A stretch of DNA of 64,000 nucleotides, from the NCBI RefSeq assembly GCF_014646815.1, contig NZ_BMNZ01000002.1:186001-250000 (forward strand), written 5' to 3'. The stretch comes from Terrabacter tumescens (lineage in GTDB: Bacteria > Actinomycetota > Actinomycetes > Actinomycetales > Dermatophilaceae). The translations under genes and the position numbers were made by a program. The notes under the pieces are model-generated. The model did not search any database. It was not told the DNA's origin and was given only the letters and a program-made list of their open reading frames with translations. This document shows positions 23,349 to 47,242 of the stretch, one piece after another. Position 1 is the first letter of the stretch; each line of letters begins with the position of its first letter.

Positions 23349-23924
23349 ATGAGCACCCTCGCCTATCCGAGCGCCGACTTCCCGGGCCAGCCGTCGGTGG
23401 CCCTCGAGGTTCCGGACGGATGGGAGCCCGCGCACGCGCCGGGCACGACGATGGCCGCCCGGCTGCCGCGCGAGGGCGGCTTCGCGCCCAACGTCCTCGT
23501 CACGATCTCGTCGTGCGGACCCGAGTTCGACGTGCAGGAGTCGCTCGAGCAGATCGCCTCGCTGGCCACCTCCCGGGGCGGCACGGTCTCCGAGCCGTAT
23601 GCCGCCGACCTGGGCGGCGCGCAGTTCGTCGGGTGCGACGCGACCTGGCCCGACGCCGACGTCGAGACGGTGCTGCAGGCCAACCTCTTCCACCTCGTGC
23701 GCTCGGGGTCGCCCGACGCCGGTGCCCACGTCGTCCAGCTGACGGGCGCGGTCGGCGGACCGGATGCCGTGGACGACTACGAGCTCATCCGGCAGGTCCT
23801 GACGACGGTCCGGGTCACCCCCTGGAGCGACGACGCGGCTGACTCCTCGAGCGACCCCCCCGCGCCGGCCACGGCGGACGCTGCGGACACGGCTGCAGGC
23901 ACGGCTTCGGGAACGGACGCATGA
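23349..23924 (+). CDS. Small protein of LpqN/Mog1-like appearance, first gene of the cluster
   Basis: 191 residues preceded by GAAAGGAACGAGCCC. It reads ALEVPDGWEPAHAPGTTMAARLPREGGFAPNVLVTI, a pattern seen in actinobacterial proteins of the Mog1/PsbP/LpqN fold, then alternating strands ending VLTTVRVTPW (about 155). The last 30 residues are Ala/Asp/Thr-rich. No signal peptide is visible, so it is probably cytosolic. Its stop overlaps the PP2C gene start (ATGA), tying it to the signalling genes. I do not recognise a specific function. Confidence 0.6.
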   Translation: MSTLAYPSADFPGQPSVALEVPDGWEPAHAPGTTMAARLPREGGFAPNVLVTISSCGPEFDVQESLEQIASLATSRGGTVSEPYAADLGGAQFVGCDATWPDADVETVLQANLFHLVRSGSPDAGAHVVQLTGAVGGPDAVDDYELIRQVLTTVRVTPWSDDAADSSSDPPAPATADAADTAAGTASGTDA

Positions 23925-24733
23925 GCGGCGCTCTTCCGGCGATCTCCGTCGGCCTCGCGACCGACGTGGGCCGGGTCCGCCAGCACAACGAGGACACCGC
24001 CATCACCCAGGGCACCGTCTACGCCGTCGCCGACGGGATGGGCGGACACGCCGCCGGCGAGGTGGCGAGCCGCATCGCCGCAGAGACCGTGGCGGAGCTC
24101 GCCGACCGTCCCGTCATCCAGGTGCGCGACATCGTCGCCCAGGTCGAGGAGGCCAACCGGCGCATCCTCGGCTCCGCCGCACGCCACCCCGAGCAGACCG
24201 GGATGGGCACGACCATCGCCGGGCTGGCCCTGGTCTCGGTGGGCGGCTCGCGGCACTGGGCCGTCTTCAACATCGGAGACTCGCGGGTCTACCGTTGCAT
24301 CGACGGACGCCTGTCCCAGGTGACCGTCGACCACTCGGAGGTGTGGGAGCTCGTCGAGCGCGGGCTCATCACCCCCGAGCAGGCCCACCGGCACCCCGGG
24401 CGCAACGTCGTCACGCGCTCGCTCGGCCGCGACCCCATGGGCGTCGTCGACACGTGGGTCTTCCCGCCCTACCCGGGCGAGGTCTTCGTCATCTGCTCCG
24501 ACGGCCTGTCCAACGAGCTGACGCGTGAGGAGATGGAGGCCGTCCTGGCCGACCACCCCGACGCCGAGGCCGCCGCGGAGGCGCTCGTGCGACGCGGTGT
24601 CGAGGCCGGGGGCCGCGACAACGTCACTGCTATCGTCGTCGCCGTGCAGGGGCAGGACGCCGACTCCGACGTCGACGAGGACACCACCCCGCGCGAGAAC
24701 GTGAACGGCTCATCAGGGGAGAGCAGGTCGTAG
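23921..24733 (+). CDS. PP2C-family Ser/Thr phosphatase
   Basis: 270 residues with the PPM-family metal motifs in order: VRQHNEDT (about 21), VADGMGGHAAGEVAS (about 37), MGTTIAG, NIGDSRVYR (about 121), VICSDGLSNEL (about 190) and GGRDNVTAIVV (about 228). It should reverse phosphorylation made by the kinase encoded 3 kb downstream. Unlike M. tuberculosis PstP it has no transmembrane or outer domain and ends soon after the catalytic fold, so it is cytosolic. It overlaps the preceding gene by four bases and lies two bases before the FHA gene. Confidence 0.93.
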   Translation: MSGALPAISVGLATDVGRVRQHNEDTAITQGTVYAVADGMGGHAAGEVASRIAAETVAELADRPVIQVRDIVAQVEEANRRILGSAARHPEQTGMGTTIAGLALVSVGGSRHWAVFNIGDSRVYRCIDGRLSQVTVDHSEVWELVERGLITPEQAHRHPGRNVVTRSLGRDPMGVVDTWVFPPYPGEVFVICSDGLSNELTREEMEAVLADHPDAEAAAEALVRRGVEAGGRDNVTAIVVAVQGQDADSDVDEDTTPRENVNGSSGESRS

Positions 24734-24735
24734 AC

Positions 24736-27612
24736 GTGAGTGGCCCGTCCGTTGTTGTCGACCGGGCCCCCGACGGGTGGACGCACATCGGGGGCCCCGG
24801 CATGCACCTGCTCATCGGCCTCGACGAGGACGACGAGCGCACGATCGCCGCGAGCGACGCGGCCGACGGCGGCGACATCGACGACGTCGTCGAGGTGCTG
24901 ACGGCCGGCGGCATGCGCAAGGCCCACCACTTCGTCGGCGTGCACTGGCAGCCCCAGACCCGCATCGTGGCCTTCGGCCCGGTGTCGGCCCTCGTGACCC
25001 TCACCGACGGCACCGAGCACGACGTCCGGGCCACGAGCAGCAAGGTCTGGACCGACCTCGACCTGCCCGAGCACCCCGAGCGCGTCGTCCTGCGCGTGCT
25101 CGACGAGTCCGAGCGCTCCCAGCCGGTGCCGGCCCAGGGGCTCGCGGGAGGTCCTGCGGGCTCCGATGCCGTGCAGCAGGGCTCAGGAGGCGCGGCCTCC
25201 GCTGCGTCCACCGACCGTGCGGGCGACCTTGCCGGCCAGCCGGACGCCGTCGCGCCGACGGACCAGCACGACCAGCACGACCCGCTCGACCAACCGGCCG
25301 ACGTGGTCGCTGGCCCGGCCTCGTCCGCCCCCGGCTCGTCGGTGGAACCGGGCACGGCGCCCCCGTCCCAGCCGCCTGCCGGCTCGTCTGAAGACTCCAC
25401 CGACAACTCCACCGCAGACTCCTCGAACGGGGCCTCGGACGAGGTGCCGGACGCCCGCCCCGTCGGTGCCGGCATCCCGACCTTCGGGGACGTCTCGAGA
25501 TCGGCCGGGGCCGCCGCAGTGTCTGGTGCCGCGGGCGCCGACGAGCCCAGCGCGTCCGGCGCGTCCGGCGACCCTGCCGGCTCGAACGACTCAGGCCGTT
25601 CGCCGTGGGACCGCAGCTGGGCCCGCCGCGACACCCCGGCGGCACCCCCCGAGGCCGGCACCACGTCTCAGCCGCCGAGCACTGACGAGCCTCCGCCGAC
25701 CGTCCCCGCCGCCCAGCCGGCTCCTGCTGCTCCCGCTGCTCCTGCGGCTGCGGCTGCGCCGGCGCTGCGCGCGTGGACCGCCGCCGCGCCACCGGCGCCC
25801 GTGCGCGCCACGCCGAAGACGACGCCGCTGCACCCGCAGACGAGCGGACCTTCCGCTGCCGCGCCGTTGACGACGCCCCAGGGGCAGGCTCCGCAGCCCG
25901 AGACAGGTCAGCCCGAGGCACCTCAGCCCGATGAGCTCGAGGCAGCGGCACCTCCGGCGGCCGCCCCCCAGCCCGTCGCCGCGCCGTCCTCTCCCGCGCC
26001 CGCCGCGCCGTCCTCTCCCGCGCCCGCCGCGCCGTCCTCTCCCGCGCCGTCCGCGACGACGCCCGTGCAGCAGCAGGTACCCGAGCCGGCTCGGTCCGAG
26101 CCGGCTCCGTCCTCTCCCGCGCCCGCCGCGCCCGCCGTGCCTGCCGTGCCTGCCGTGCCCGCCGTGCCCGTCGTGCCCGCCGTGCCCGCCGTGCCGGTGG
26201 CCGGCGACCTGCCTGCGGCCGAGCCGCGCGACGTCGACTCGACCTGGGCCGCCCGACCCCTGCTCGAGCAGGACGCAGCCCCGGCCGCCGCGCCCGCGCA
26301 GGCCGCGCCGGCATCCGCCACGTCACTGTCACCCGCCCCGGGCCCGCCGGGCGTCGCCGGCACGGATGACCAGTCGGACGACGAGCCGGCGGCAGCGCTG
26401 CCCAGCTACGACTACCTCTTCGGTCACACCACGACGGCCGACGAGCATCGCAAGGCCCTCGCCCAGCTGACCCAGCCGGACGACGAGGACTCCGCCCACG
26501 ACGACGAGCACCTGTCGGTCCCGAGCGTCACCGACGTGCCCGACGTGCCTGTGACGAATGCCGCGCCCGTCCCCGAGGTGCCCGAGCGCCCCCTTCCGTC
26601 GGCACCGCTGCTCCCCGAGACGTCCGAGGGCGGCCTCATCTCGTCCGTCCCGTGGGCGAGCCCCGCTCCGGCTGCGGCGCCCCGGCCCGAGGTGACTCCC
26701 GAGGTGCCGACCTTCTCGGGGCGGCACACACCGCCCCCGGCCCCGAGCCTGCTGCCACCGATGAACACCCCGCCGCCCGGCGCCCGGGCGCCCGAGGCCA
26801 CTCCGCTCATCTCCATGGGCCCGCCGCCTGCCTCGCCTGCGCCTGCCTCACCTGCGCCGCCGACCGGCCAGGCTGCCCAGGGACCCGCCGCGCCATCGGC
26901 ACCCGCGCAGCCCGCGGCATACGCCCCGTCGGTGCAGTCGCCCACGGAGCCGAGCTTCGACGTGCCCATCTCGCTGCCCACGGCACCGCCGGCCCCGCCG
27001 GTCTCGGCAACCACGGCGCCCGCGGCGACCCCGGCTGCTCCCGTGGTCGACGCCGCTCCCGCAGCGGACGACGACGAGACGGAGCTGACCGTCGACCGCA
27101 GCGCGCTGCTCGAGGCGCGCAACGCCGCGCAGAACCAGACGTTCTCGGGCCCCAGCGTGCTGGCCGTGCTGTGCTCGGCGGGTCACCCGACGCCGCCGCA
27201 CGGCGACCGCTGCCGGGTGTGCGGCTCGAGCATCCCGCCGCAGGAGCCGTTCACGATGCCGCGGCCGCCGCTCGGCGTGCTGCGCCTGTCGACGGGCGAC
27301 GTCGTCACCCTCGACCGCAGCGTCCTGCTCGGCCGCGCGCCACGGCTCGGTGACGGCCTCGCAGCCCACGACCGGCCGCACGTCGTCAAGGTGCCGAGCC
27401 CCGAGCGCGACATCTCGCGCAACCACGTCGAGGTCATCCTCGAGGGATGGCACGTGCTGATCCGCGACCTCGGCACGACCAACGGCACCACCGTGACGCT
27501 GCCGGGCGAGAGTCCGATGCGCCTGCGCGCCAACGACCAGCAGGTCCTCGAGGCCGGGTCGCGCGTGTCCATGGCCGACGAGGTCTCCTTCACCTTCGAG
27601 GCGGCCCTGTGA
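24736..27612 (+). CDS. FHA-domain protein with N-terminal novel domain and very long Pro/Ala linker
   Basis: 958 residues in three parts. Residues 1-130 form a compact unrecognised domain (GWTHIGGPGMHLLIGLDEDD; GVHWQPQTRIVAFGP). Residues 130-790 are low-complexity Ala/Pro/Ser/Thr, with repeats such as PAAPSSPA and VPAVPAV. A small Cys cluster (CSAGHPTPPHGDRCRVCG, about 812-830) looks like a zinc ribbon. The final ~95 residues are an FHA domain with LLGRAP, SRNHVEV, DLGTTNGT and a strand-rich end. FHA domains bind phosphothreonine, so it likely reads marks set by the adjacent kinase. Start GTG, two bases after the phosphatase gene. Confidence 0.85.
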   Translation: MSGPSVVVDRAPDGWTHIGGPGMHLLIGLDEDDERTIAASDAADGGDIDDVVEVLTAGGMRKAHHFVGVHWQPQTRIVAFGPVSALVTLTDGTEHDVRATSSKVWTDLDLPEHPERVVLRVLDESERSQPVPAQGLAGGPAGSDAVQQGSGGAASAASTDRAGDLAGQPDAVAPTDQHDQHDPLDQPADVVAGPASSAPGSSVEPGTAPPSQPPAGSSEDSTDNSTADSSNGASDEVPDARPVGAGIPTFGDVSRSAGAAAVSGAAGADEPSASGASGDPAGSNDSGRSPWDRSWARRDTPAAPPEAGTTSQPPSTDEPPPTVPAAQPAPAAPAAPAAAAAPALRAWTAAAPPAPVRATPKTTPLHPQTSGPSAAAPLTTPQGQAPQPETGQPEAPQPDELEAAAPPAAAPQPVAAPSSPAPAAPSSPAPAAPSSPAPSATTPVQQQVPEPARSEPAPSSPAPAAPAVPAVPAVPAVPVVPAVPAVPVAGDLPAAEPRDVDSTWAARPLLEQDAAPAAAPAQAAPASATSLSPAPGPPGVAGTDDQSDDEPAAALPSYDYLFGHTTTADEHRKALAQLTQPDDEDSAHDDEHLSVPSVTDVPDVPVTNAAPVPEVPERPLPSAPLLPETSEGGLISSVPWASPAPAAAPRPEVTPEVPTFSGRHTPPPAPSLLPPMNTPPPGARAPEATPLISMGPPPASPAPASPAPPTGQAAQGPAAPSAPAQPAAYAPSVQSPTEPSFDVPISLPTAPPAPPVSATTAPAATPAAPVVDAAPAADDDETELTVDRSALLEARNAAQNQTFSGPSVLAVLCSAGHPTPPHGDRCRVCGSSIPPQEPFTMPRPPLGVLRLSTGDVVTLDRSVLLGRAPRLGDGLAAHDRPHVVKVPSPERDISRNHVEVILEGWHVLIRDLGTTNGTTVTLPGESPMRLRANDQQVLEAGSRVSMADEVSFTFEAAL

Positions 27613-27655
27613 CCCGCACGCCCGTCCACCCCCGACCCGCGGCCGGAGGTGCGTC

Positions 27656-29359
27656 GTGAAGAAGGGTGCGCCCCCGAAGATCCCGGGCCTCGTCTTCGTC
27701 CAGCCGCTCGGGTCGGGCGGCTACGCCGACGTCTTCCTCTACGAGCAGCAGAGCCCTCGCATGCCGGTCGCGGTGAAGGTGCTCAAGCCCGAGGGCCTGA
27801 CCGACGCGCTGCGCCAGCAGTTCGTCGAGGAGGCCGACACGATGGCCGCCCTCGGCGACCACCCCTACATCGTGCAGGTGTTCCGTTCGGGCACTTCCGA
27901 CGACGGTCGTCCGTACCTCGTCATGAAGTATTACCCGCCGCCCAACCTCGCGATGCGGGCGCGCGCCGAGCGCTTCTCGGTCGAGGACGTGCTGCGCACC
28001 GGCATCCAGCTCTCGAGTGCCGTCGAGACCGCGCACCGGGCCCACATCACGCATCGCGACATCAAGCCGGCCAACGTGCTCATCAGCGCCTACGGCGCCC
28101 CGGGCCTGACCGACTTCGGCATCGCCGGCCGTGGCGCGCGCGACGGCGACGTCGAGCCGGAGGCCACCGACGACGTCGGCGTCTCGGTGCCGTGGGCGCC
28201 GCCGGAGGTGCTCTACGGCCAGAGCAACGGCGACGAGCGCTCCGACGTCTACTCCCTCGCGGCCACGCTGTGGCAGCTCCTCGTCGGGCGTTCCCCTTTC
28301 GAGGTGCCGGGGGGCGACAACTCCGCGTATGCGTTGATGCCGCGGATCCGCAGCACCGCACCGCCCGCGACCGGGCGCCCGGACGTGCCGGCCGGCCTCG
28401 AGCGCCTGCTGGCGCAGGCGATGGCCAAGGACCCGTCGCACCGTCCCGCGTCGGCGCTGGAGTTCGCGCGCGCCCTCCAGGCCGTCGAGCAGCAGCAGCG
28501 CCTCAACCGCACGCCGATCGTCGTGCTCGACGAGCAGGGCCACACGACCCTGGTGAGCCAGACGCAGGGCTCGCCGACGGGCCGCGGCGGTGACGACGAG
28601 GACCGCACGCGCATCAAGGCGCCGCAGACGGTCGTCGCGCAGCCGCTCGGGCCGTCGCCGACCATGCCCGACGGCGAGACCCGTCGCCGGTCCGACGCCG
28701 GTGGGCAGCGGTGGTCACCGGCCCCGGTGCCGAGCGCCGGACCGGCACCCTCGGCGGCGCCGGTGCGCCCAGCCGCCGCGACCGACCCGGTGACGAGCCA
28801 GACGGCGCCCCTGGGGTCGGACTCCTCGGAGGAGGCGACCGTCCGTCGCGCCGCCGGCGCCGCCGGGGCGCAGGAGGCTCCGGCTCCGGCGCAGCCGCCG
28901 GTCTCGCCGCTGTCCAAGCCCCCCGTGCTGTGGGGCCTGGCCGCCGGGGTCGTGGTGCTCGTCGGTCTCGTCGTGTTCCTCCTGCTGCGTGGAGGTTGGG
29001 GGGACGCGCCCGAACCCGCCCTGCCGTCGCCGAGCGCGACCGTCTCGATGCCGGGCGACGACAGCGCCATCGGCGACGGCGTCTTCGACAAGCCGACCGT
29101 CACCGCGAGGTCGGGCGCCGGGAGCGTCGGTTTCACGTGGAACTACCCGCAACCGGACAAGAAGGACACCTTCCGGCTGTCCTACGCGCCGACCGCCTCC
29201 GACGCCGGGAACCCCGAGCGCTCCAAGCTCGTCTCGGTCACGACCCGGAGCTACACGGTCAAGGCGGCCAAGGGCACGAAGGTGTGCGCCACGGTCCGCG
29301 TGTCCCGGTCGGGCCAGGTCTCGCCGGGCTCCGACGTCCAGTGCGAGACCGCGCAGTGA
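27656..29359 (+). CDS. Transmembrane Ser/Thr protein kinase
   Basis: 567 residues. The kinase domain spans about 10-285 with intact catalytic parts: LGSGGYADVF (about 19), VAVKVLK (Lys about 42), THRDIKPANVLI (about 127), TDFGIAG (about 147) and PEVLYG, then SDVYSLAATLWQLLVGRSPF. A low-complexity segment with several Thr residues follows, then one membrane helix (about 422-446) and an extracellular FN3-like domain (about 475-567) with two cysteines. There are no PASTA repeats, so it is not PknB-type. GGAGGTGCGTC precedes the GTG start. Likely substrates are the FHA proteins and the ATPase encoded nearby (inference). Confidence 0.92.
   Translation: MKKGAPPKIPGLVFVQPLGSGGYADVFLYEQQSPRMPVAVKVLKPEGLTDALRQQFVEEADTMAALGDHPYIVQVFRSGTSDDGRPYLVMKYYPPPNLAMRARAERFSVEDVLRTGIQLSSAVETAHRAHITHRDIKPANVLISAYGAPGLTDFGIAGRGARDGDVEPEATDDVGVSVPWAPPEVLYGQSNGDERSDVYSLAATLWQLLVGRSPFEVPGGDNSAYALMPRIRSTAPPATGRPDVPAGLERLLAQAMAKDPSHRPASALEFARALQAVEQQQRLNRTPIVVLDEQGHTTLVSQTQGSPTGRGGDDEDRTRIKAPQTVVAQPLGPSPTMPDGETRRRSDAGGQRWSPAPVPSAGPAPSAAPVRPAAATDPVTSQTAPLGSDSSEEATVRRAAGAAGAQEAPAPAQPPVSPLSKPPVLWGLAAGVVVLVGLVVFLLLRGGWGDAPEPALPSPSATVSMPGDDSAIGDGVFDKPTVTARSGAGSVGFTWNYPQPDKKDTFRLSYAPTASDAGNPERSKLVSVTTRSYTVKAAKGTKVCATVRVSRSGQVSPGSDVQCETAQ
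29130..29143. other. parS-like sequence in the kinase gene (weak)
   Basis: GTTTCACGTGGAAC differs from the parS core at one position. It is about 24 kb from the parS cluster, inside codons for SVGFTWN, and may be fortuitous. Confidence 0.25.
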
Positions 29360-29534: not shown

Positions 29535-30344
29535 GTGATCCACAGCAAGGTGACCGTCGTGTTCTGCGGCGAGGAGTACTCCGTGTCACCCGACACCGGG
29601 CTGACCATCGGTCGCACCGGCGACGTCGAGGTGGACGACAACCCCTACCTGCACCGCACCTTCCTCGTCGTCTCGTTCGAGAACGGCTTCTGGTGGATCA
29701 GCAACACCGGTTCGACCCTGACCGCGACGGTCGCCGACGAGCAGGGCCTCTTCCAGGCCTGGCTCAACCCGGGCGCGAAGATCCCGCTCGCGATGAAGAA
29801 GCTCATCGTCTGGTTCACCGCCGGCCCCACCACCTACGACTTCGAGATCCACGTGGCGAGCCCGGCCTTCCGGTCCGTCACGGCCGACCCCGCCGCAGGG
29901 TTCGACGACGAGGCCGACGACGAGGTCGGCGCAGCCACCGTCGGGCGCGTGTCGTTCACCCCCGACCAGAAGCTGCTCGTCGTCGCGCTCTGCGAGCCGT
30001 TCCTCCTGCGCCGGGAAGCGGGTACGAGCCAGATACCCTCCTCGGCCGCTGCCGCCGACCGCCTCGGCTGGACTCTCACCCGCTTCAACCGCAAGCTCGA
30101 CAACGTCTGCCAGAAGCTCGCCGACGCCGGCACGCGCGGCCTGCACGGCGGCGTCGGCAAGCTCGCGACCAACCGCAAGGCGCGTCTCGTCGAGCACGCG
30201 CTCTCGACCAAGCTCGTCACCGAGGGCGACCTCGCCCTCCTCGACGAGCGGCTCGGCGCCCAGGGCGCCGACACCCACACCAGCACCGCCGATGAGAAGA
30301 GGGTCGACGGCCGCAAGGTCGTCGCCGAACAGGGGAACGCATGA
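29535..30344 (+). CDS. FHA protein with C-terminal winged-helix-like domain
   Basis: 269 residues from a GTG (GGGACCTGATC upstream). The first ~115 resemble an FHA sandwich (LTIGRTGDVEVDDNPYLHRTFLVV; WISNTGS). The second half (about 135-235) begins FTPDQKLLVVALCEPFL and continues ADRLGWTLTRFNRKLDNVCQKLADAG and RKARLVEHALSTKLVT, which has the look of a winged helix-turn-helix. It may sense phosphothreonine and bind DNA or a partner (inference). The gap before it (29360-29534) is unusually A/C-rich around 29430-29470 and may hold an internal promoter (TTGACC near 29479). Its stop overlaps the next start (ATGA). Confidence 0.75.
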   Translation: MIHSKVTVVFCGEEYSVSPDTGLTIGRTGDVEVDDNPYLHRTFLVVSFENGFWWISNTGSTLTATVADEQGLFQAWLNPGAKIPLAMKKLIVWFTAGPTTYDFEIHVASPAFRSVTADPAAGFDDEADDEVGAATVGRVSFTPDQKLLVVALCEPFLLRREAGTSQIPSSAAAADRLGWTLTRFNRKLDNVCQKLADAGTRGLHGGVGKLATNRKARLVEHALSTKLVTEGDLALLDERLGAQGADTHTSTADEKRVDGRKVVAEQGNA

Positions 30345-37801: not shown

Positions 37802-39271
37802 ATGACCCAGCAGGACCAGGGGGCCGCACCGTCGCGTCGCGGCGGCCGCTTCCGTATGCCGTCACGCAAGGGCGCGTCGGCCGGTGCCGTCGCGCCCGTG
37901 GCGGAGGCACCCGCCGGCGCGACCGGTGGGCGTGCGCGGGCCGTCAGCGGCACGACGAGCCGCGGCATCCGCCAGATCACCCAGCCGATCACCCGCTCGA
38001 TCGAGCAGGTGGCGGGCCAGACCGAGGGCGTGTGGCGCCCGGTCGCCGGGATCCTGCGCTGGATCTCGCCGCTCGGCTGGACGATCCTCGCTCTCGGTGT
38101 CGTCTGCTGGGTCGTCGGCGCGCGCTGGGGCTGGACCGAGCTGCTCATGGTGGCCGCGGCCGCCCTCGTGCTCTTCCTCGTCTGCTTCGTGCTCGCCCTC
38201 GGCCGCACCAAGGTCCGCATCCTCGCCGAGGTCGACCCGCGTCGTGTCGTCGTCGGTGAGCCCGCGACGGGTCGGATCCTCGTGACCAACGAGGCGCGCA
38301 CCCCGATGCTGCCGATCCTCGTCGAGCTGCCCGTCGGCCTGTCGGCGGCGCGGTTCGTCCTGCCGGCGCTGACCCCGGGCAACGCCCACGAGGAGCTCTT
38401 CGTCGTCCCGACCTCGCGCCGAGGCGTCATCCAGGTCGGCCCGGCGACGACGGTCCAGGGCGACCCGCTGGGCCTCATGCGCCGCACCCTGACGTGGACC
38501 GAGCGCACCGAGCTCTTCGTCCACCCGCGCACCGTCGCCCTCGAGTCGCTCGGCGCCGGCCTGCTGCGCGACCTCGAGGGGAGCACGACCGAGGACGTCT
38601 CGATGAGCGACCTCGCCTTCCACGCGCTGCGCGAGTACCAGCCGGGCGACGACCGCCGCTACATCCACTGGCGCAGCTCGGCCAAGGCCGGCCGTCTGCT
38701 CGTGCGCCAGTTCCTCGACACGCGGCGCTCGCACGTGACCGTCATCGTCGACCCCGACCCGGAGCAGTACCGCTCGGGCCACGGCAAGACCGGCCGGACC
38801 GACCGCGACGTCGAGCGCGACGTCATGGCGGCCAACGCCCCGACGGCCATCCAGGCCGACGTCGAGACGGCGATCTCGGTCGGCTCCTCGATCATGGTCC
38901 GCGTCATGCTCGACGAGCAGGACTGCACCATGGTCTGCGGCGACCAGAAGGTGAGCCGCGCGGTGCCGCAGGTCGGGCTCGACGCGATGTCGCGCGTCGA
39001 CCCGGGACCGGTCGACCTCTTCGCGGTGAGCCTCGACGCCACCGACCTCGCCCCCGACACCTCGACCGTCTTCTTCGTCACCGGCCCGCACCGCCCGTTC
39101 ATCGAGCTGCAGCGCGCGGCAGGACAGTTCCCGCCCGAGGTGACGCGCGTCATCATCGTCGTCGACCCGCTCGCCGACCACGGCCTGCGCCGCGGCGGTG
39201 GCCTGACGATCCTCACCCTGAGCGCCCTCGAGGACCTCCGTCCCCTCCTGTTCACCGGAGTCGCACGATGA
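37802..39271 (+). CDS. DUF58 membrane protein
   Basis: 489 residues from an ATG after AAGGGGACCGC. A basic, Gly/Arg/Ala-rich N-terminus (about 1-75) precedes two membrane helices (LGWTILALGVVCWVVGARWG and LLMVAAAALVLFLVCFVLAL, about 88-140). A beta-rich segment and the DUF58 core follow, with the hallmark REYQPGDDRRYIHWRSSAKA near residue 280 and a VWA-like end. DUF58 proteins are standard partners of MoxR ATPases. The last codons overlap the next gene (ATGA), so these two products are made together and may form one complex. Confidence 0.9.
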   Translation: MTQQDQGAAPSRRGGRFRMPSRKGASAGAVAPVAEAPAGATGGRARAVSGTTSRGIRQITQPITRSIEQVAGQTEGVWRPVAGILRWISPLGWTILALGVVCWVVGARWGWTELLMVAAAALVLFLVCFVLALGRTKVRILAEVDPRRVVVGEPATGRILVTNEARTPMLPILVELPVGLSAARFVLPALTPGNAHEELFVVPTSRRGVIQVGPATTVQGDPLGLMRRTLTWTERTELFVHPRTVALESLGAGLLRDLEGSTTEDVSMSDLAFHALREYQPGDDRRYIHWRSSAKAGRLLVRQFLDTRRSHVTVIVDPDPEQYRSGHGKTGRTDRDVERDVMAANAPTAIQADVETAISVGSSIMVRVMLDEQDCTMVCGDQKVSRAVPQVGLDAMSRVDPGPVDLFAVSLDATDLAPDTSTVFFVTGPHRPFIELQRAAGQFPPEVTRVIIVVDPLADHGLRRGGGLTILTLSALEDLRPLLFTGVAR

Positions 39272-41964
39272 GCCAGACCGGTATCTCCGCCCCGCCGCCG
39301 AGCGCGCTCGTGCAGCCCCCGAGCGCGCGCGAACGCCTCGGCACCCAGCTGGCCAAGCTGCGCCCGACGGTGCCGCAGCTCGTCGACGCCGGCTTCACCG
39401 TCGTGCTCGTCGGGATCGCCCTCGTCGGCTTCCGCACGACCTTCTTCGGCCTCGGTTGGCTGTGGGTCGGTCTGGCGGGTCTGCTCGTCGGCCTGCTCGT
39501 CAGCCACGTCGGCGCCGCCTTCCGCGCCCTCGGCGTCGTGACCCTGCTCGGCGCCGCGGCGGCCTACCTGCTCCTCGGCGGTCCCATCGCCGTGCGCGAG
39601 GACCTCATCGCGGGGTTCCTGCCCTCGGGCTCGACCTTCTCGACTCTCGTGCACATGGCGGTCCCCGGCTGGAAGGAGCTGCTGACGGCGCTGCCGCCGG
39701 TCGACTCCGAGGGCCCGTACATGGCGCTGCCGTTCCTCTTCGGTCTCGTCGGGGCCGCGCTGACCTACGGCGTGGCCCGTCGCTGGCCCGGCGCGGTGCT
39801 CGCCCTCGTCTCGCCGGTCGCGCTGCTCGTCGCCTCCATCGTGCTCGGCACGCAGACGCCGGCGGCCGTCCTCGTCCAGGGCGCGGTGTTCGCGCTCGTG
39901 GCCATCGGCTGGACCGCGCTGCGCAGCAACCGCAACCGACCGGCCCTGCAGAACGGTGCCGGCCGCACGACCCGCGCGGTCACGACCGCGGGCCTGCTCG
40001 CCGTCGCGACCGTCGGCGGCTTCTTCGTCGGGCCGATGCTGCCGGGCGCCGACCAGAGCCGCACGGTCCTGCGTCCTTCGCTCGTGCCGCCGTTCGACGT
40101 CAGCCGCTACGCCTCGCCGCTCGCCGGCTTCCGCCAGTACACCGAGCCCAACAGCGCGAAGCAGTTCGACAAGACGCTCCTCACCGTCAAGGGCCTGCCG
40201 GCGAACGTGCCGCTCCGGTTCGCGGCGCTCGACTCCTACGACGGGTTCGTCTGGGGCGCGGGCAACTTCGCCAACCTCGGCGACGGCCCCGACCCGCAGG
40301 GCACGAGCTTCCGCAAGGTCGGCACCCACATCGCCGCGGAGGGTCCGGGGCGGGAGGTCACGGCCACCGTGTCGGTCCCCGCGGGCGGCTACAGCGACGT
40401 GTGGCTGCCGACCTTCGGCACGGTCACCGGACTCGACTTCGGCGGCAGCCGCAGCGACCAGCTCTCCGACGACCTGCGCTTCAACGTCGACACCAACACC
40501 GGCGTGCTCCCCGAGAAGCTCGCCACGGGCGACCAGTACACCGTGACGGCCTACGTCCAGGACCCGCCGAAGGAGCTGCCGAAGTCGCTCGACGTCGCCG
40601 ACGGCTCGACGGTCGACGTGTCGGCCCTGTCGTTCCTCGACGACAAGGTGACGCCGTGGACCGACCGCGTCGACGGGCAGTGGGAGAAGGTCGCGGCCGT
40701 GGCCAAGGCCCTCCAGGACGGCGCTTACACCGACGGCGGCACGCCCGGCGACTACCAGAACGTCTTCCTGCCGGGCCACAGCCTGCTGCGCATGAGCCAG
40801 TTCATGAAGTCGACGCAGCTGGCCGGCAACGACGAGCAGTACGCCGCGGCCTACGCGCTCGTCGCCAACCGGCTCGGTGTCCCGGCGCGCGTCGTCCTTG
40901 GTGCCGTCCCCGAGGCCGGTGGCGTCGTCAAGGGCAAGGACGTCCGGGCGTGGGTCGAGGTCAAGCTCGCCGACGACACGTGGATGCCCATCCTCGCCAC
41001 GCAGTTCGTCCCGGACCGCAACAAGAAGCCGCAGCAGCTCATCCGCAAGTCGGAGGAGAAGAAGACCGGCGCCCAGGTGCCGCCGCCGGCGGCCAACAAC
41101 CCGCCGAGCGTGCTGCAGGGCCCCGACCAGGCGCAGAACGCGACGCAGCTGCGCAACCCGCCGAAGGACGACAACCCGCTCAACCCCGACAACTGGCCGG
41201 ACTGGCTGCGCTGGCTCATCTTCTACGTGCTCGTGCCGCTGGCCGTCCTGCTCCTCGTCTACGGCGCGATCCGCGGAGCCAAGTGGCTTCGTCGCCGGCG
41301 TCGGCGCACGACCGGTGGCATGGCCACGCGGGTCACGGGTGGCTGGCGCGAGATCATCGACACCGCGCGCGACCTGCGGATGCCCGTGCCCGCCAAGGGG
41401 ACCCGCATCGAGCAGGCCCGGGCGCTCGAGCTGCACGTCGACGGTCCGCCGCCGCCGAAGCCCAGCGTCGTCGTCGACGGCGCCCTCATGGGTGCCCCCA
41501 GGTCGAGTGCTCACTTTCCCCCCGACCCGGCAACGGCCACCCCATCCCCTGACGGGGGGAAGGTGAGCACTCGACCTCTGGCGCTCGTGCCGGTCGCGGC
41601 CGCCGCCAACGGGCACGTCTTCGACGTCGACGAGCCGACCTCGGAGGAGGTCGACGCGTTCTGGGCCGACGTCGAGACTGCCCGCAAGCGGATCCGGGGC
41701 GAGCAGTCGTTCTGGCAGAAGCTGCGCGGCGACGTGTCGCTGCGCACCTTCCGCGACCACCTGCCCACCGGGTCGGGTCTCGGGCCGGCGCTGGCGCGCA
41801 CCTCCCGCCGCCAGGGCAAGGCGGAGCCGGCCCGTCGGGGCCGGGCCGCCACCACCAAGGCCGGCGTCGGCACGTCCGCGCCGGGTGACACGAGGGCGAG
41901 CCGGCGCGCCGGCGCAGGCCGCAGCAGCTCCGGCACGGGTGTCGGCAAGAAGGGTGACGCGTGA
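39268..41964 (+). CDS. Membrane protein with a degenerate transglutaminase-like domain
   Basis: 898 residues. About six N-terminal membrane helices (40-275) are followed by an outer region with a transglutaminase-like fold (about 330-590). The catalytic triad appears lost: the segment aligned with G-x-C reads NDEQYAAAYALVANRLGVPAR, the His block HAWVE reads VRAWVEVKLA, and the DPT block reads PILATQF. A late membrane helix (WLRWLIFYVLVPLAVLLLVYGA, about 648-670) and an Arg-rich cytoplasmic tail follow. The tail contains an inverted-repeat insertion at 41500-41577. It overlaps both neighbours by four bases. Likely a structural member of the DUF58/MoxR/ATPase machine. Confidence 0.82.
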   Translation: MSQTGISAPPPSALVQPPSARERLGTQLAKLRPTVPQLVDAGFTVVLVGIALVGFRTTFFGLGWLWVGLAGLLVGLLVSHVGAAFRALGVVTLLGAAAAYLLLGGPIAVREDLIAGFLPSGSTFSTLVHMAVPGWKELLTALPPVDSEGPYMALPFLFGLVGAALTYGVARRWPGAVLALVSPVALLVASIVLGTQTPAAVLVQGAVFALVAIGWTALRSNRNRPALQNGAGRTTRAVTTAGLLAVATVGGFFVGPMLPGADQSRTVLRPSLVPPFDVSRYASPLAGFRQYTEPNSAKQFDKTLLTVKGLPANVPLRFAALDSYDGFVWGAGNFANLGDGPDPQGTSFRKVGTHIAAEGPGREVTATVSVPAGGYSDVWLPTFGTVTGLDFGGSRSDQLSDDLRFNVDTNTGVLPEKLATGDQYTVTAYVQDPPKELPKSLDVADGSTVDVSALSFLDDKVTPWTDRVDGQWEKVAAVAKALQDGAYTDGGTPGDYQNVFLPGHSLLRMSQFMKSTQLAGNDEQYAAAYALVANRLGVPARVVLGAVPEAGGVVKGKDVRAWVEVKLADDTWMPILATQFVPDRNKKPQQLIRKSEEKKTGAQVPPPAANNPPSVLQGPDQAQNATQLRNPPKDDNPLNPDNWPDWLRWLIFYVLVPLAVLLLVYGAIRGAKWLRRRRRRTTGGMATRVTGGWREIIDTARDLRMPVPAKGTRIEQARALELHVDGPPPPKPSVVVDGALMGAPRSSAHFPPDPATATPSPDGGKVSTRPLALVPVAAAANGHVFDVDEPTSEEVDAFWADVETARKRIRGEQSFWQKLRGDVSLRTFRDHLPTGSGLGPALARTSRRQGKAEPARRGRAATTKAGVGTSAPGDTRASRRAGAGRSSSGTGVGKKGDA
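41500..41577. repeat. 24-bp inverted repeat inside the transglutaminase-like gene
   Basis: Left arm 41500-41523 (AGGTCGAGTGCTCAC then TTTCCCCCC) and right arm 41554-41577 are inverse copies with one mismatch, around a 30-base spacer rich in CACCCCATCCCCTGACG. The reading frame stays open across it. The size and shape resemble a REP/MITE-type palindromic element that landed in a disordered tail. I found no second copy in this window. Confidence 0.75.
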
Positions 41965-44900
41965 AGCTGAAGTTCGTCCTCCGGTCCGGCGACCGTGAGA
42001 CCGACCTCGTCGCGACGACGGACTCCGCCACCACGGTCGGGGACCTCGCCGCCTACCTCGCCGCGGCTGACCCGCACCGCTCGAGCGTGCTCGGCGTCGA
42101 CGCACCGATGACGCTCGCCCTCGTCGACCAGGACATGCGGGGCCTCGACCCGCGCGCCACGGTCGCCGAGAGCGGGCTCCAGTCCGGCATGCGGGTCTCC
42201 ACGACGCGCGCCGGCGAGGGCTTCGTCGACCGCGGTCGACCCGCGGCCGTCGCCTACATCCGCTCGGGACCCGACGCGGGGCGCGAGTTCCCGCTCGCCC
42301 GCGGCACGGCATACGTCGGCCGCGGACGCGGCTGCGAGGTGCAGCTGTCCGACGAGTCGGTCTCGCGCAAGCACGCCAAGCTCGTCATCCAGGAGGTCGT
42401 CGAGGTCGTCGACCTCGGCTCGGCCAACGGCATCACCGCGGGCGGGCAGCAGGTCACGCGCGCGCACCTCAAGAGCGGCGACGTCGTGCGCGTCGGCGAC
42501 AGCGAGCTCGAGGTGCACCTGCAGGGCGACGGCGTCGTCAGCCGACCCGGCAGCGGCGTCCTCTCGGGTGACGCGGGCACGGTCGCCTTCTCGCGCTCGC
42601 CGCGGGTGGCGCCGCTCTTCTCGGGCCAGGAGTTCCAGGTCCCCGACCTGCCCGAGCGCGCCAAGCTCAACCCGATGCCGCTCGTCGCGATGATCGTGCC
42701 GCTGCTCATGGGCATCGTCATGTACCTCATCACCCGCAGCGCCTTCTCGATCATCTTCATGCTGATGATGCCGATGATGATGGCCGGCACGTACTACGAG
42801 GCCCGTCGCCAGCAGAAGAAGGAGTTCGCGCAGGCGATGCAGGACTTCCGCGAGGACCTCGAGCTGCTCTCGCAGCGCATCCGCGGGTCGCTCGAGGTCG
42901 AGGGGCGGACCCGGCGCGGCGAGCACCCGAGCGGCGTCGACTGCCTCACCGCCGTCCGTGACCGCAGCGCCCTGCTCTGGACCCGCCGCCGCGACGGCCA
43001 CGGCTACGGCGAGCTCCGGCTCGGCCTCGGCACCCGCCCGTCCCGCTCCGCGATCAAGATGCCGGCCGTCGGCCGCTCCAAGGCCGAGGCGTGGCTCGCG
43101 GTCTCCGAGGAGCTGAGCGGTCTCGAGGTCGTCCACGACGTCCCGGTCGTCGCCACGCCGCTGACCGACGGCGCCGTCGGCATCGCCGGCCAGCGTGCCG
43201 CCGCCCTGGGCGCGGCCCGCTCCTTCGTGCTCCAGACCGCGTCGCTGCACTCGCCGGCCGAGCTCGCCGTCTGCTCCTTCGCCTCGGGCAGCTCCGCCCG
43301 CGACTGGGACTTCCTCAAGTGGCTCCCGCACACGACCTCGCCGCACAGCCCGATCGGGGTCGACCACCTCGCCGCCAGCGCCCCCGGGTGCTCGGCGCTC
43401 GCGGACGCGCTCGAGGACATCGTCGAGGCCAAGGGCACCGGCAAGGAGCAGGAGCAGGCCGTCGCCGAGCGGCCCACGGTCCTCGTGCTCGTCGAGAGCG
43501 ACGCCCCCATCGACCGCAGCCGCCTCGTCGCGATCGCCGAGCGCGGCCACCGGCACGGCATCGTCGTCCTCTGGGTCGCCGAGACGCAGCAGCTGCTCCC
43601 GGCCGCGTGCCAGACCTTCCTCGTCGTGGCCGACGACCAGAGCTCGCTCGCCGGCTACGTCCACGCCGGCGAGGAGGTGCAGCCCGTCGCCGTCGACGCC
43701 ATCTCCTACGACGAGGCGATGGCCTGCGCCCGCCAGCTCGCGCCCGTCGTCGACGCCGGTGTGCCCGTCGACGACGCCAGCGACCTGCCCCGCGCCGTCT
43801 CGCTGCTCACGCTCGCCGGCACCGACCTCGCCAGCTCCGAGCAGGCGGTCATCGAGAAGTGGGGCGAGTCGCGCTCCATTCTCACCGGTCCGTACGCGCC
43901 GGCGGTCCTGCCGCGCAAACCCGGCAACCTGCGCGCCATCGTCGGCCAGTCGAGCCAGGGCACCTTCTCGGTCGACATCCGCAGCGACGGCCCGCACGCG
44001 CTCGTCGGCGGCACGACCGGCGCCGGCAAGTCCGAGCTGCTCCAGGCCTGGATCCTCGGCATGGCCGCGGCCCACTCGCCGCAGCGCGTCACCTTCCTGC
44101 TCGTCGACTACAAGGGTGGCTCGGCCTTCCGCGACTGCGTCAAGCTGCCGCACACCGTCGGCCTCGTCACCGACCTCTCGCCCCACCTCGTGCGCCGTGC
44201 GCTCGCCTCGCTCGCGGCCGAGCTGCACTACCGCGAGCACCTGCTCGCGCGGCACAAGGCCAAGGACCTGCTCGAGCTCGAGCGCCGCGGTGAGGTGGAG
44301 GCCCCGCCCTCGCTCATCCTCGTCGTCGACGAGTTCGCCGCGCTCGTGCAGGAGGTGCCGGAGTTCGTCGACGGCGTCGTCAACGTCGCCCAGCGCGGAC
44401 GGTCCCTCGGGCTGCACCTCATCCTCGCGACGCAGCGTCCCGCCGGCGTCATCAAGGACAACCTCCGCGCCAACACCAACCTCCGCATGGCGCTGCGCAT
44501 GGCCGACGAGAACGACTCCGAGGACGTCCTCGGCTCCAAGGAGGCCGCGTTCTTCGACCCCGCCCTCCCGGGTCGTGCCGTCTCCAAGACGGGTCCCGGC
44601 CGGCTCGTGCCCTTCCAGACGGGGTATGCCGGTGGGTGGACCTCCGACGTCCCGCCGCCTCCCGACATGAAGGTCGAGACGCTCACCTTCGGGCGCGGCA
44701 CCGAGTGGGAGCCCCCGCGCGTCGAGGGCGCCGACGACTCCGCCGACCTCGGCCCGACCGACATCCAGCGCCTCGTGTCGACGCTGGGACGCGCGGCGCG
44801 CGTGGCCGAGCTGCCCAAGCCGCGCAAGCCGTGGCTGCCCGACATGCGCGCGGTCTACGACCTCGCGACCCTGCCGACGCAGCGCCGCGACGACGAGCTC

Positions 44901-46361
44901 GTCTTCGGCATCGCCGACGACCCCGACAACCAGGCCCAGCCGGAGATCGCCTTCCGCCCCGACAAGGAGGGCAACATCGCGATCTACGGCACGTCCGGCT
45001 CGGGCAAGTCCGTCTTCCTGCGCTCGATGGCGGTCGCGGCCGGCTACACGGTGCGCGGCGGGCCCTGCCACGTCTACGGCCTCGACTTCGGCAACCGCGG
45101 TCTCGCGATGCTCGAGGCGCTGCCGCACGTCGGCTCGATCATCCCCGGCGGTGACCACGAGCGCGTCGTCCGGCTCATCCGCACCCTGAGGGCCACGATC
45201 GACGAGCGCGCCTCGCGCTACTCGGCCGTCAGTGCCGCGACGATCACCGACTACCGCCGCCTCGCCGGCCACCCCGACGAGCCGCGCATCATCGTGCTCA
45301 TCGACAACATGACGGCCTTCCGCCAGGCCTACGAGGTGGGCGGCCGCTTCCAGTGGCTCGACGCGCTCGCCGGTCTCGCCGCCGACGGCCGTCCCGTCGG
45401 GGTCCACTTCATCATCGCGTCCGACCAGCGCACCGGCCTGCCGACCAACCTCGCGGCCGCTGTCCAGGGCCGGATCATCCTGCGCATGAGCAACGTCGAC
45501 GACTACTCCGTCTTCGGCGTCCCCGGCGACGTGCTGACGATGGCCTCGCCCCCCGGACGTGGCCTGATGTCCGGGTCCGAGGTGCAGGTCGCGGTGCTCG
45601 GCGGCTCGTCCGACGTCACGGTCCAGGCCGCCGCCATCGAGGCCTTCGCCGACGCGACGCGCAAGGCCGGCGTCAGCCAGGCGCCGCCGATCGAGAGCCT
45701 CGCCGAGGTCATCCCCCTCGGCGACCTCCCGTCGGAGTTCCACGGCCGCCCCGTCGTCGGCGTCGCCTCCTCGAGCCTCGAGCCGCACGGCTTCGACCCG
45801 AAGGGCACGTTCATCATCACGGGCCCGTCGGGGTCCGGCCGGACGACGGCGGTCGCCGCCACGGCCGCCGGCCTCTTCCGGTTCAGCTCGGCGTCGGCGC
45901 TCTACCTCATGACGCCGCGACGCAGCTCCGAGCTGCTCGACCTCGGCATCTGGGCCGAGACGGCCGTCGGCAGCGGTCCCACGTCGGCACTGGCGAGCCG
46001 GCTCGCGGCCGAGATCGAGGAGGGGCGCGTCACGAGGCCGATCGCGGTCTTCGTCGAGCGCATCGACGACCTCGCCCCGTCCGGCGCCGAGAACGCCCTG
46101 ACCACCCTGGCCAAGGCCTGCGTCGACAACGACCAGCTCGTCGTCGCCGAGGGCGAGGCCGCCTTCTTCAGCAGCAACTTCGGGCTCCAGGCGCTGCTCA
46201 AGACCTCACGCTCGGGGCTGGCCCTGCACCCGGACGGCAACGAGGGGCTCTCGGTCTTCAAGGCCAACCTGCCCGCGCTCAACCGCGCGGAGCTCCCCCC
46301 GGGCCGTGGCTTCCTCATCGAGAAGGGCAAGTTCGAGCTCGTCCAGGTGGCCCTGCCGTGA
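41961..46361 (+). CDS. FHA-containing FtsK/SpoIIIE-type secretion ATPase (EccC/EssC-like)
   Basis: 1466 residues. A ubiquitin-like N-terminus (1-85) and an FHA domain (about 95-190: YVGRGRGCEVQLSDESVSRKHAKL, DLGSANGI) precede two membrane helices (about 234-275). Three ATPase domains follow. D1 has GGTTGAGKSELLQ (about 682), LLVDYKGGSAF and LVVDEFAALV. D2 has YGTSGSGKSVFLR (about 1008) and IVLIDNM. D3 has TGPSGSGRTTAV (about 1286), with Arg replacing the Walker lysine. N-terminal FHA plus three P-loop domains is the layout of firmicute EssC; actinobacterial EccC usually lacks FHA. It should drive export of WXG100 proteins encoded just downstream. GTG overlaps the previous stop. Confidence 0.9.
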   Translation: MKLKFVLRSGDRETDLVATTDSATTVGDLAAYLAAADPHRSSVLGVDAPMTLALVDQDMRGLDPRATVAESGLQSGMRVSTTRAGEGFVDRGRPAAVAYIRSGPDAGREFPLARGTAYVGRGRGCEVQLSDESVSRKHAKLVIQEVVEVVDLGSANGITAGGQQVTRAHLKSGDVVRVGDSELEVHLQGDGVVSRPGSGVLSGDAGTVAFSRSPRVAPLFSGQEFQVPDLPERAKLNPMPLVAMIVPLLMGIVMYLITRSAFSIIFMLMMPMMMAGTYYEARRQQKKEFAQAMQDFREDLELLSQRIRGSLEVEGRTRRGEHPSGVDCLTAVRDRSALLWTRRRDGHGYGELRLGLGTRPSRSAIKMPAVGRSKAEAWLAVSEELSGLEVVHDVPVVATPLTDGAVGIAGQRAAALGAARSFVLQTASLHSPAELAVCSFASGSSARDWDFLKWLPHTTSPHSPIGVDHLAASAPGCSALADALEDIVEAKGTGKEQEQAVAERPTVLVLVESDAPIDRSRLVAIAERGHRHGIVVLWVAETQQLLPAACQTFLVVADDQSSLAGYVHAGEEVQPVAVDAISYDEAMACARQLAPVVDAGVPVDDASDLPRAVSLLTLAGTDLASSEQAVIEKWGESRSILTGPYAPAVLPRKPGNLRAIVGQSSQGTFSVDIRSDGPHALVGGTTGAGKSELLQAWILGMAAAHSPQRVTFLLVDYKGGSAFRDCVKLPHTVGLVTDLSPHLVRRALASLAAELHYREHLLARHKAKDLLELERRGEVEAPPSLILVVDEFAALVQEVPEFVDGVVNVAQRGRSLGLHLILATQRPAGVIKDNLRANTNLRMALRMADENDSEDVLGSKEAAFFDPALPGRAVSKTGPGRLVPFQTGYAGGWTSDVPPPPDMKVETLTFGRGTEWEPPRVEGADDSADLGPTDIQRLVSTLGRAARVAELPKPRKPWLPDMRAVYDLATLPTQRRDDELVFGIADDPDNQAQPEIAFRPDKEGNIAIYGTSGSGKSVFLRSMAVAAGYTVRGGPCHVYGLDFGNRGLAMLEALPHVGSIIPGGDHERVVRLIRTLRATIDERASRYSAVSAATITDYRRLAGHPDEPRIIVLIDNMTAFRQAYEVGGRFQWLDALAGLAADGRPVGVHFIIASDQRTGLPTNLAAAVQGRIILRMSNVDDYSVFGVPGDVLTMASPPGRGLMSGSEVQVAVLGGSSDVTVQAAAIEAFADATRKAGVSQAPPIESLAEVIPLGDLPSEFHGRPVVGVASSSLEPHGFDPKGTFIITGPSGSGRTTAVAATAAGLFRFSSASALYLMTPRRSSELLDLGIWAETAVGSGPTSALASRLAAEIEEGRVTRPIAVFVERIDDLAPSGAENALTTLAKACVDNDQLVVAEGEAAFFSSNFGLQALLKTSRSGLALHPDGNEGLSVFKANLPALNRAELPPGRGFLIEKGKFELVQVALP

Positions 46362-46452
46362 CGTCTGAGAGTGCGCGAAAAGCGTTGGGTCACAAGGGAG
46401 CCCGAGGGTGCACGCGGCATACGCCAGCGGTGCCCGCAAGGGTGGGGAGGTC

Positions 46453-46470: not shown

Positions 46471-46634
46471 CGACACCCCCCGAGGGCTGACATAGGTTTC
46501 TGCATGTCGACGAAAGCCGCTCTTCGGACGAAGGGTGCGGACGTCGAGAAGTTTCGCATGGCGCGGGCCTGAACGGTTGGTCCGGAAGAGAACTTCCCGA
46601 ATCAGTCGGGGGAACACAGGCAAAGGAGAAGGTC

Positions 46635-46910
46635 ATGGCTTGGCTCGGTATGAACGACGATGAGGTCAACGCCCAGGGCAACGTCCTGCAGCAGCAGGCG
46701 GAGGCCATCCAGAAGCTCATCACGAAGGTCGACCAGGAGGTCGAGTCCCTGAAGCAGAACTGGCAGGGTGACGACTCCAAGCAGTTCGAGCAGGAGTGGA
46801 CCGGCACGCACCGTCCCGAGCTCCAGAAGGCCCAGAAGCTGCTCACCGAGATGAAGTCGACGATCGACCACGAGGTCCAGCAGCAGCGCAGCACCTCGTC
46901 GCAGTACTGA
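46635..46910 (+). CDS. WXG100-family secreted protein (first of pair)
   Basis: 91 residues from an ATG after AAGGAGAAGGTC. The predicted helical hairpin turns at NWQG (about 42-45), the W-x-G signature. The first helix is NVLQQQAEAIQKLITKVDQEVESLKQ and the second FEQEWTGTHRPELQKAQKLLTEMKS. It ends EVQQQRSTSSQY without a clear YxxxD/E export motif. Such proteins form homo- or heterodimers that are type VII substrates. It follows the ATPase gene and precedes a second WXG100 gene by 56 bases. Confidence 0.93.
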   Translation: MAWLGMNDDEVNAQGNVLQQQAEAIQKLITKVDQEVESLKQNWQGDDSKQFEQEWTGTHRPELQKAQKLLTEMKSTIDHEVQQQRSTSSQY

Positions 46911-46966
46911 TCGACCTCAGCTCACACATCGACCTACACACGCTTCACTTCTGAAGGGGAACTGAC

Positions 46967-47242
46967 ATGGCTGTTTACAAGAAGGGCATGAACGCCGACG
47001 CGGTGTCCGCGTCGGGCGACAAGCTCGTCGGCTACAAGGGCGAGCTTGACGGCATCGTCGAGGCCGTCAACGGCGCCGTCTCCACGATCAAGGGCAACTG
47101 GGGCGGCACGGACGCCGACCGCTTCCAGAGCGACTGGCACGGCCAGCGCCAGGTCGTGTCGGCCGCGGGCGACAAGCTCGACGCCATGGGCAAGAAGTGC
47201 AAGACCAACGCCGAGACGCAGAAGCAGACGTCGTCCAAGTGA
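46967..47242 (+). CDS. WXG100-family secreted protein (second of pair)
   Basis: 91 residues from an ATG after GAAGGGGAACTGAC. The turn is NWGG (about 44-47), flanked by helices VSASGDKLVGYKGELDGIVEAVNGAVSTI and RFQSDWHGQRQVVSAAGDKLDAMGKK. The tail ETQKQTSSK again lacks YxxxD/E. It is the likely dimer partner of the preceding protein, which it matches exactly in length. A terminator closes the transcript. Confidence 0.92.
   Translation: MAVYKKGMNADAVSASGDKLVGYKGELDGIVEAVNGAVSTIKGNWGGTDADRFQSDWHGQRQVVSAAGDKLDAMGKKCKTNAETQKQTSSK

Follow-up and report, generated by a model that had tools for sequence, protein, structure and literature searches.

What kind of secretion system is encoded by a gene cluster that sets an ATPase and two WXG100 proteins of type VII secretion system (T7SS) character beside a kinase, a phosphatase and a giant surface protein? 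The question is raised by a locus of Terrabacter tumescens that lies in a 64,000-nucleotide stretch of DNA (hereafter the window), positions 186001-250000 of contig NZ_BMNZ01000002.1 (contig C2 of the 4.71-Mb genome G000). An earlier note, made from the letters alone, had proposed a distinct secretion machine. Our best reading of the sequences is that the locus is a non-ESX T7SS variant, related to the systems T7SSd and T7SSe, with a co-inherited, phospho-regulated envelope module, and that this module is, judged by its gene content and order, the PFNA operon described in Bifidobacterium. Gene calls and Pfam confirmed twelve consecutive plus-strand genes spanning 23349-47242, with the domains that the note had named, as follows.

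23349..23924, plus strand: g1, LpqN-like protein without a signal peptide, a candidate substrate chaperone (PF10738, 21.8 bits against a cut-off of 22.4)
23921..24733, plus strand: g2, PP2C phosphatase (PF13672)
24736..27612, plus strand, start at 24736 or 24802: g3, long low-complexity protein with a C-terminal FHA domain (PF00498 at residues 886-934)
27656..29359, plus strand: g4, Ser/Thr kinase of Pkb2 type with one transmembrane segment and an outer tail (PF00069, E 3.8e-36)
29535..30344, plus strand: g5, divergent FHA-like domain (by eye) and a conserved C-terminal domain
30341..36658, plus strand: g6, giant surface protein of 2105 aa with Big_9 and fn3 repeats, homologue of the PFNA FN3 protein (Pfam)
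36763..37755, plus strand: g7, MoxR AAA+ ATPase (PF07726, E 2.5e-61)
37802..39271, plus strand: g8, DUF58 membrane protein (PF01882, E 2.4e-8)
39268..41964, plus strand: g9 (TGM), membrane pseudo-transglutaminase with TgpA_N and Transglut_core, Asp at the catalytic Cys position (Pfam, alignment)
41961..46361, plus strand: g10 (TsdC), type VII ATPase with FHA and FtsK_SpoIIIE domains (Pfam)
46635..46910, plus strand: g11, WXG100 protein with a WQG motif (PF06013, 34.9 bits against a cut-off of 27.3)
46967..47242, plus strand: g12, WXG100 protein with a WGG motif (PF06013, 29.7 bits against the same cut-off)

By its sequence, TsdC belongs to the EccC/EssC family of FtsK/SpoIIIE-type ATPases, with profile matches that include YukB and EccC5 structures and a similarity to EssC/EccC that spans most of the ATPase. 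Its scores fall below every equivalog cut-off: 501.9 bits against the EssC model (cut-off 778.4), 363.2 against EccCa (509.15) and 290.6 against EccCb (346.55). The protein displays an FHA domain at residues ~100-185 with a phosphothreonine-binding pattern, hydrophobic segments at ~239-274 and three P-loops, the third reading GxxxxGRT. Among the best 80 of 585 relatives, which are the loci named in this work and favor kin of the window, the TsdC of Terrabacter sp. Root181 is 94% identical in its best segment and that of Intrasporangium flavum 90%. The FHA pattern, searched as a loose expression, is found in 92/106 TsdC homologues, and 97 of them have the D1 Walker A; the second P-loop (80/106) and the Walker B pattern (66/106) are less constant, and in the third P-loop the usual Lys, present in 20/106, is replaced by Arg in 66, the window protein included. 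One or two duplicates (G306 = L158, L253 = L199) are contained in this set, as in that of the first TGM count. In a quickly searched tree of 63 rows, where the long branches L257 and L258 come together and one of the EccC rows, L269, stems from a genome outside the EccD search, the eleven ESX EccC rows form a single group with a support of 100, and the window ATPase falls outside it. A 37-row clade holds 26 of the 28 rows labelled PFNA-linked, with G171 and G220 sitting elsewhere. The genome of T. tumescens encodes a second TsdC-like ATPase of 1445 aa, 33% identical (G000:C6:348607-352944, that is L038:12608-16945), which adjoins genes resembling those of Tad pili and has no recognizable WXG100 or PFNA gene beside it.

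The ESX markers agree with this placement. The window had been said to lack EccB and EccD, and a search of the full genome, as the earlier note had proposed, bears this out: neither EccB (PF05108) nor EccD (TIGR03920) has a match in the genome. In a panel of 23 genomes, 11 of the window type and 12 ESX positive controls, EccB was found in none of the former and in all of the latter, and the same was true of EccD above its cut-off; a nearly full-length EccD-like match in G377 reached 82.2 bits, under the cut-off of 94.95. The best match in the T. tumescens genome to the mycosin model TIGR03921, a model that also matches in five non-ESX controls, scored 210.8 bits, under the cut-off of 278.75. 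No EssB, EsaA or EssA turned up in general scans of the window proteins, the genome itself not having been searched for them. Hence, while the locus shares an FtsK-type ATPase and a WXG100 pair with ESX systems (T7SSa), it differs from them in having no EccB, EccD or mycosin above cut-off and in an ATPase that bears an FHA domain outside the EccC clade. With EccB absent and EccD under its cut-off in the 11 genomes, we rejected membership of T7SSa. The notion of a distinct type VII machine is thus supported, with the proviso that non-ESX systems (T7SSc-j) are already published, which the earlier note had missed.

Is the locus then simply the published T7SSd, with the giant as TsdI and the kinase as TsdD? 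T7SSd (Olsenella, Bifidobacterium, Actinomycetota) and T7SSe (Bacillota) have been described by Garrett et al. 2024 (PMC11217815). Two T7SSd markers, TsdA (WXG100) and a TsdC with an N-terminal FHA domain, are present in the window, which also shares with T7SSd a membrane kinase, a large Ig-type surface protein and the phylum. We nevertheless consider this identity improbable. The window has no TsdH- or TsdI-like match, its kinase is of Pkb2 type, and it adds a PP2C phosphatase, FHA proteins, the MoxR/DUF58/TGM set, a second WXG100 protein and a likely ubiquitin-like domain on the ATPase; MoxR, transglutaminase and fibronectin are not mentioned in the main text of PMC11217815. Moreover, G322 and G378 each have a PFNA locus and, ~13 kb off, a T7SSd-like locus, which in G322 encodes TsdD-, TsdH- and TsdI-like proteins apart from the PFNA locus. 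When eight proteins of the G322 T7SSd-like locus were compared with those of the window, the kinase alone matched (66.6 bits), and the TsdH- and TsdI-like proteins had no phmmer match at E<=10, this being one reference locus assigned by gene order. The window kinase family scores 316 and 318 bits with the PFNA kinases of G322 and G378, versus 93 with their T7SSd-like kinases, and the T7SSd-like ATPases of these two genomes lie in a separate clade of the tree. As for T7SSe, the likeness consists of two WXG100 proteins, a (likely) ubiquitin-like part, a kinase, a PPM phosphatase and a separate FHA protein, whereas in the window the ubiquitin-like part is on the ATPase, the giant is of FN3/PFNA type and the phylum differs; DUF6382, a T7SSe trait, has no match on g3. 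We have filed the locus as a T7SS variant that is neither T7SSa nor T7SSd.

What the remaining genes are as a set was missed in the earlier note. The PFNA operon of Bifidobacterium comprises pkb2, fn3, aaa-atp, duf58 and tgm, together with prpC, hyp and fha (PMC8430577); in B. longum the PFNA MoxR is a phosphorylation target of Pkb2 (PMC8430577). In gut bifidobacteria the operon has been read as a sensor of the host immune system, cytokine binding having been reported for FN3. The window keeps the order of the five core genes, its giant likewise bears Big_9 and fn3 repeats, and PP2C and FHA genes are present as well; it differs in that g5 is inserted after the kinase and in that TsdC and two WXG100 genes adjoin the module, in T. 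tumescens. PFNA has been described as restricted to bifidobacteria (PMC10688814), which our loci contradict: the module is widespread here, with the TGM gene upstream of TsdC in 13 families. A 2025 review notes that a mycobacterial moxR operon resembles PFNA (PMC12067865). Six genomes that are Bifidobacteriaceae-like by their PFNA-like gene order (f65; 1.8-2.7 Mb, locus G+C 0.57-0.67) show kinase, giant, MoxR and DUF58 in order, five of them with a called TGM gene. In one of them (G262) a PP2C, a hypothetical and an FHA gene are also present in the same direction; in another (G277) there are a PP2C-like and a hypothetical gene, with the FHA gene on the opposite strand. All six giants score 981-1155 bits against a giant profile built without f65 sequences. 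A WSxxS "cytokine receptor" pattern occurs, as a descriptive count, in the last 40% of 31/40 giants, including the giants of the window, Dactylosporangium (L139) and Actinospica (L143).

How firmly is this module tied to TsdC? We counted, in the upstream direction only, the 62 of 80 named loci in which no less than 9.5 kb precedes TsdC. TGM was found in 49 of these, spanning 13 named families and 7 orders, DUF58 in 43, FHA in 37, g5 and PP2C in 31 each and the kinase in 30; MoxR (22) and the giant (14) are both limited by the 10-kb flank. TsdC is immediately preceded by DUF58 and TGM in 11 loci and by the kinase and g5 in 24, g5 standing directly before it in 27. Among 33 joined loci, hand-picked from the TsdC matches, 11 keep all nine genes (PP2C, FHA, kinase, g5, giant, MoxR, DUF58, TGM and TsdC) in two gene orders, a linkage which is therefore more than chance; further arrangements are seen in G303, G390, G171 and G220. 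At genome level, co-occurrence was gauged by g5 in 198 genomes of the order and by MoxR in 25 chosen genomes. The g5 gene, present in 74/198, occurs in 47 of the 54 genomes whose TsdC scores 839 bits or more versus 27 of the 144 others (Fisher p 6e-19, ignoring kinship). A test of co-occurrence is what the earlier note had asked for, and its tying of kinase, phosphatase and FHA genes to a type VII ATPase holds, since these genes are often conserved beside TsdC. One locus, in Mycobacterium sp. GA-2829 (L161), has a TsdC of the window's clade and WXG100-type genes with no PFNA gene recognized in the flank. Paired proteins of 1160 and 1300 aa near TsdC in L163, L207 and L211 were considered as alternative envelope parts and rejected, as they resemble RpoB and RpoC.

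The last gene of the module has been presumed to encode a cysteine protease (PMC8430577). This is unlikely because the active-site Cys is nearly always replaced: in 81 distinct TGM homologues the position is held by Asp (56), Glu (10), Ser (9), Gln (3), Ala (1), Gly (1) and Cys (1). Ser stands there in the five called f65 copies, and a His at the expected place is found in 31 of 83 rows. The single Cys-bearing protein, L255 of genome G307, belongs to a trio of MoxR, DUF58 and TGM genes next to which neither a giant nor a kinase was called. We thus rejected an active transglutaminase or cysteine protease; TGM is, as its active site indicates, a pseudoenzyme, and tgm is predicted not to encode a cysteine enzyme. 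The "degenerate transglutaminase" of the earlier note is correct and extends across the family.

The extreme N terminus of TsdC, residues ~1-85, probably corresponds to a ubiquitin-like domain fused to the ATPase. In G208, positions 8-83 of the EccD model TIGR03920 match inside the TsdC N terminus (C86:4971-5192) with an E value of 6.8e-5. When a profile of 26 TsdC N termini was compared with PDB chains, a redesigned ubiquitin came first, with a sequence E value of 0.0012 and a domain E value of 0.039; of the ten chains listed with E values no higher than 10, six are ubiquitin-like, namely ubiquitin, SAMP1 (three chains), ISG15 and PKC-zeta PB1. Compared profile to profile with 18 EccD N termini, the TsdC N terminus scores 22.1, above all 50 column shuffles (best 15.9). 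According to Garrett et al. 2024 (PMC11217815), T7SSd has no counterpart of the ubiquitin-like component found in other T7SS, and the N terminus of TsdC is perhaps a candidate for that missing part. The likely domain had escaped the earlier note.

The genes themselves encode a conserved module, an ATPase whose FHA pattern is intact, a kinase and a PP2C that have kept their sequence motifs, and two WXG100 proteins. Taken as a whole, a non-ESX T7SS in which the module acts in export is the explanation that we favor, with moderate confidence. According to it, the WXG100 proteins and dispersed WXG-fusion proteins would dock on TsdC and be driven through the membrane, the fused ubiquitin-like domain standing in for EsaB or for the ubiquitin-like domain of EccD. 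The outer tail of the kinase would read an envelope signal, upon which the kinase would phosphorylate a partner that is then bound by the FHA domain of TsdC, and PP2C would reset the switch. MoxR, DUF58 and the pseudo-transglutaminase might together serve as a chaperone complex in the membrane, assembling or remodeling both the giant and the secretion complex, and the giant may span the wall as an adhesin, a target sensor or a conduit.

Several observations weigh against this explanation. In G287, G294, G085, G225 and G370 the module is found elsewhere than beside TsdC, and so is a second copy in G303. In G308, G247, G262, G277, G437 and G317 PFNA is present, and a search that scored two candidates per genome found no TsdC at E<=1e-60; by the same measure, 8 of the 74 g5 genomes have no TsdC match. 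In 13 of the 62 counted loci no TGM gene was found within ~10 kb upstream of TsdC. In one Janibacter melonis genome (G306 = L158) the gene call gives a giant of only 419 aa, within a locus that is otherwise complete, which speaks against the giant as an essential conduit. A control genome, G171, combines EccB and EccD with a divergent TsdC linked to PFNA. A WXG100 protein was recognized directly downstream of TsdC in 29 of 72 loci, other small proteins standing there in several. As for the ubiquitin-like N terminus, the EccD model matched it in G208 alone among 11 genomes, the best-domain E value is that same 0.039, 4 of the 10 PDB chains are not ubiquitin-like, Pfam YukD matches 4/47 TsdC members (best E 0.056), and the profile-profile score of 22.1 compares with 20.3 for the unrelated g5 and 19.6 for the intended positive control. 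Replacement of the usual membrane parts by the module and the giant, as suggested in the earlier note, stands as a hypothesis with evidence on both sides, PFNA being separable from TsdC and the giant so short in one Janibacter.

The separate occurrences of PFNA, the Bifidobacteriaceae-like genomes found without TsdC and the loci with TsdC and no TGM gene would also fit two independent neighbors, a minimal T7SS made of TsdC and WXG100 proteins and an autonomous PFNA module for adhesion or signaling. We regard this as unlikely, although less so than identity with T7SSd: the adjacency of module and TsdC survives rearrangements in 13 families, g5 stands directly upstream of TsdC in nearly half of the counted loci (27/62), and the TsdC FHA domain, its binding pattern being intact, would need a kinase. 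That the ATPase and WXG100 genes form no exporter at all, the locus serving instead as an envelope-maintenance or signaling complex, would agree with the lack of any recognizable channel protein among the twelve genes; we hold it to be very improbable, given the similarity to EssC and EccC over most of the ATPase (including the EssC score and the YukB and EccC structures) and the dispersed WXG-fusion proteins in the same genome.

The pairing with the ATPase suggests an older role of PFNA linked to protein export. A bolder proposal, which we offer tentatively and think somewhat likelier wrong than right, is that Actinomycetota possess a widespread and so far undescribed class of T7SS whose envelope and phospho-control half is PFNA, with an ATPase fused to a ubiquitin-like domain, an FN3 trans-envelope part and a MoxR/DUF58/pseudo-transglutaminase assembly chaperone; the bifidobacterial module would have split from the ATPase or outlived it, and cytokine binding by FN3 would have arisen late, as a by-product of an original role in secretion. 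Two lines of work that have been separate until now, on PFNA and on type VII secretion, would become joined by the pairing, and a kinase-controlled T7SS would be open to study in harmless bacteria. The gene set that has been read as a means of bifidobacterial host-immune sensing would seem to have close relatives in actinomycetes of soil and water. Within the literature searched, subscription papers being outside its scope, we found no paper joining "PFNA" with "type VII secretion", none combining WXG100, Micrococcales and type VII secretion (the supplements of PMC11217815 may list such loci) and none on topic for WXG100, FtsK, DUF58, MoxR and type VII together; the term "T7SSd" occurs in one paper.

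Both WXG100 proteins of the window score above the Pfam cut-off, as the earlier note had them. Elsewhere in the genome, three dispersed proteins of 322-408 aa have WXG100-type N termini recognized by the g11/g12 profiles (L002:1480-2628, L004:1483-2709 and L006:1477-2445), the second of which has a lipase-like GHSLGG stretch and sub-threshold matches to Lipase_3 and Mbeg1-like. In loci L160, L171, L188, L198 and L203, two proteins of 95-117 aa, unmatched by our WXG models, come after TsdC, and behind them stands a protein of 415-541 aa that has between one and three hydrophobic segments.

The first gene of the cluster, g1, left unnamed in the earlier note, may encode a substrate chaperone. Its profile matches 3lyd (E 9.6e-32) and LpqN (E 0.017), the fold being of Mog1/PsbP type. 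The suggestion is made because LpqN-like genes follow genes that match our WXG profiles, in 10/10 cases in the named loci (weakly in L168), and because of a faint kinship with EagT6; the resemblance to that T6SS chaperone was itself set aside as weak (E 1.2). The preceding WXG-type protein measures 329-467 aa in seven cases (L138, L140, L148, L168, L197 twice and L205), and of the six that were scanned Pfam WXG models match three at E<=0.05 (L140, L148 and L205). These proteins mostly have a glycine-rich C terminus in common. Downstream of the T7SSd-like ATPase of G322 there is a 206-aa protein (L092:4259-4876) with no Pfam match, which is LpqN/PsbP-like by eye.

Motifs are well kept in the families of the other genes: DG[MV]GG in 50/52 homologues of g2, HRD..N in 59/60 and DFG plus the single hydrophobic segment in 60/60 homologues of g4, and the Walker A pattern in 52/54 homologues of g7. 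The PP2C-like protein of L246 matches no Pfam family at E<=0.01, yet scores 175 bits against our own profile. Two FHA proteins had been listed besides the ATPase; g3 is one by PF00498, while g5, with no Pfam match, is FHA-like by eye and has 13 homologues with 44-68% identity. Genes were called with a home-made scorer, which missed the TGM gene in G247 and perhaps also in G377. The many 4-base overlaps ascribed to the cluster are true of 4 of the 11 junctions; at the other seven the genes are 2 to 273 bases apart, the widest gap standing before the WXG100 pair. No promoter-like site was found within 46000-47600, and one terminator-like site is there, at chance level. In g3 a zinc-ribbon-like stretch can be seen by eye, and g6 begins with a hydrophobic segment at residues 10-28. 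The whole cluster is flanked by a PolyA_pol/HD nucleotidyltransferase gene upstream and a DUF6421 gene downstream.

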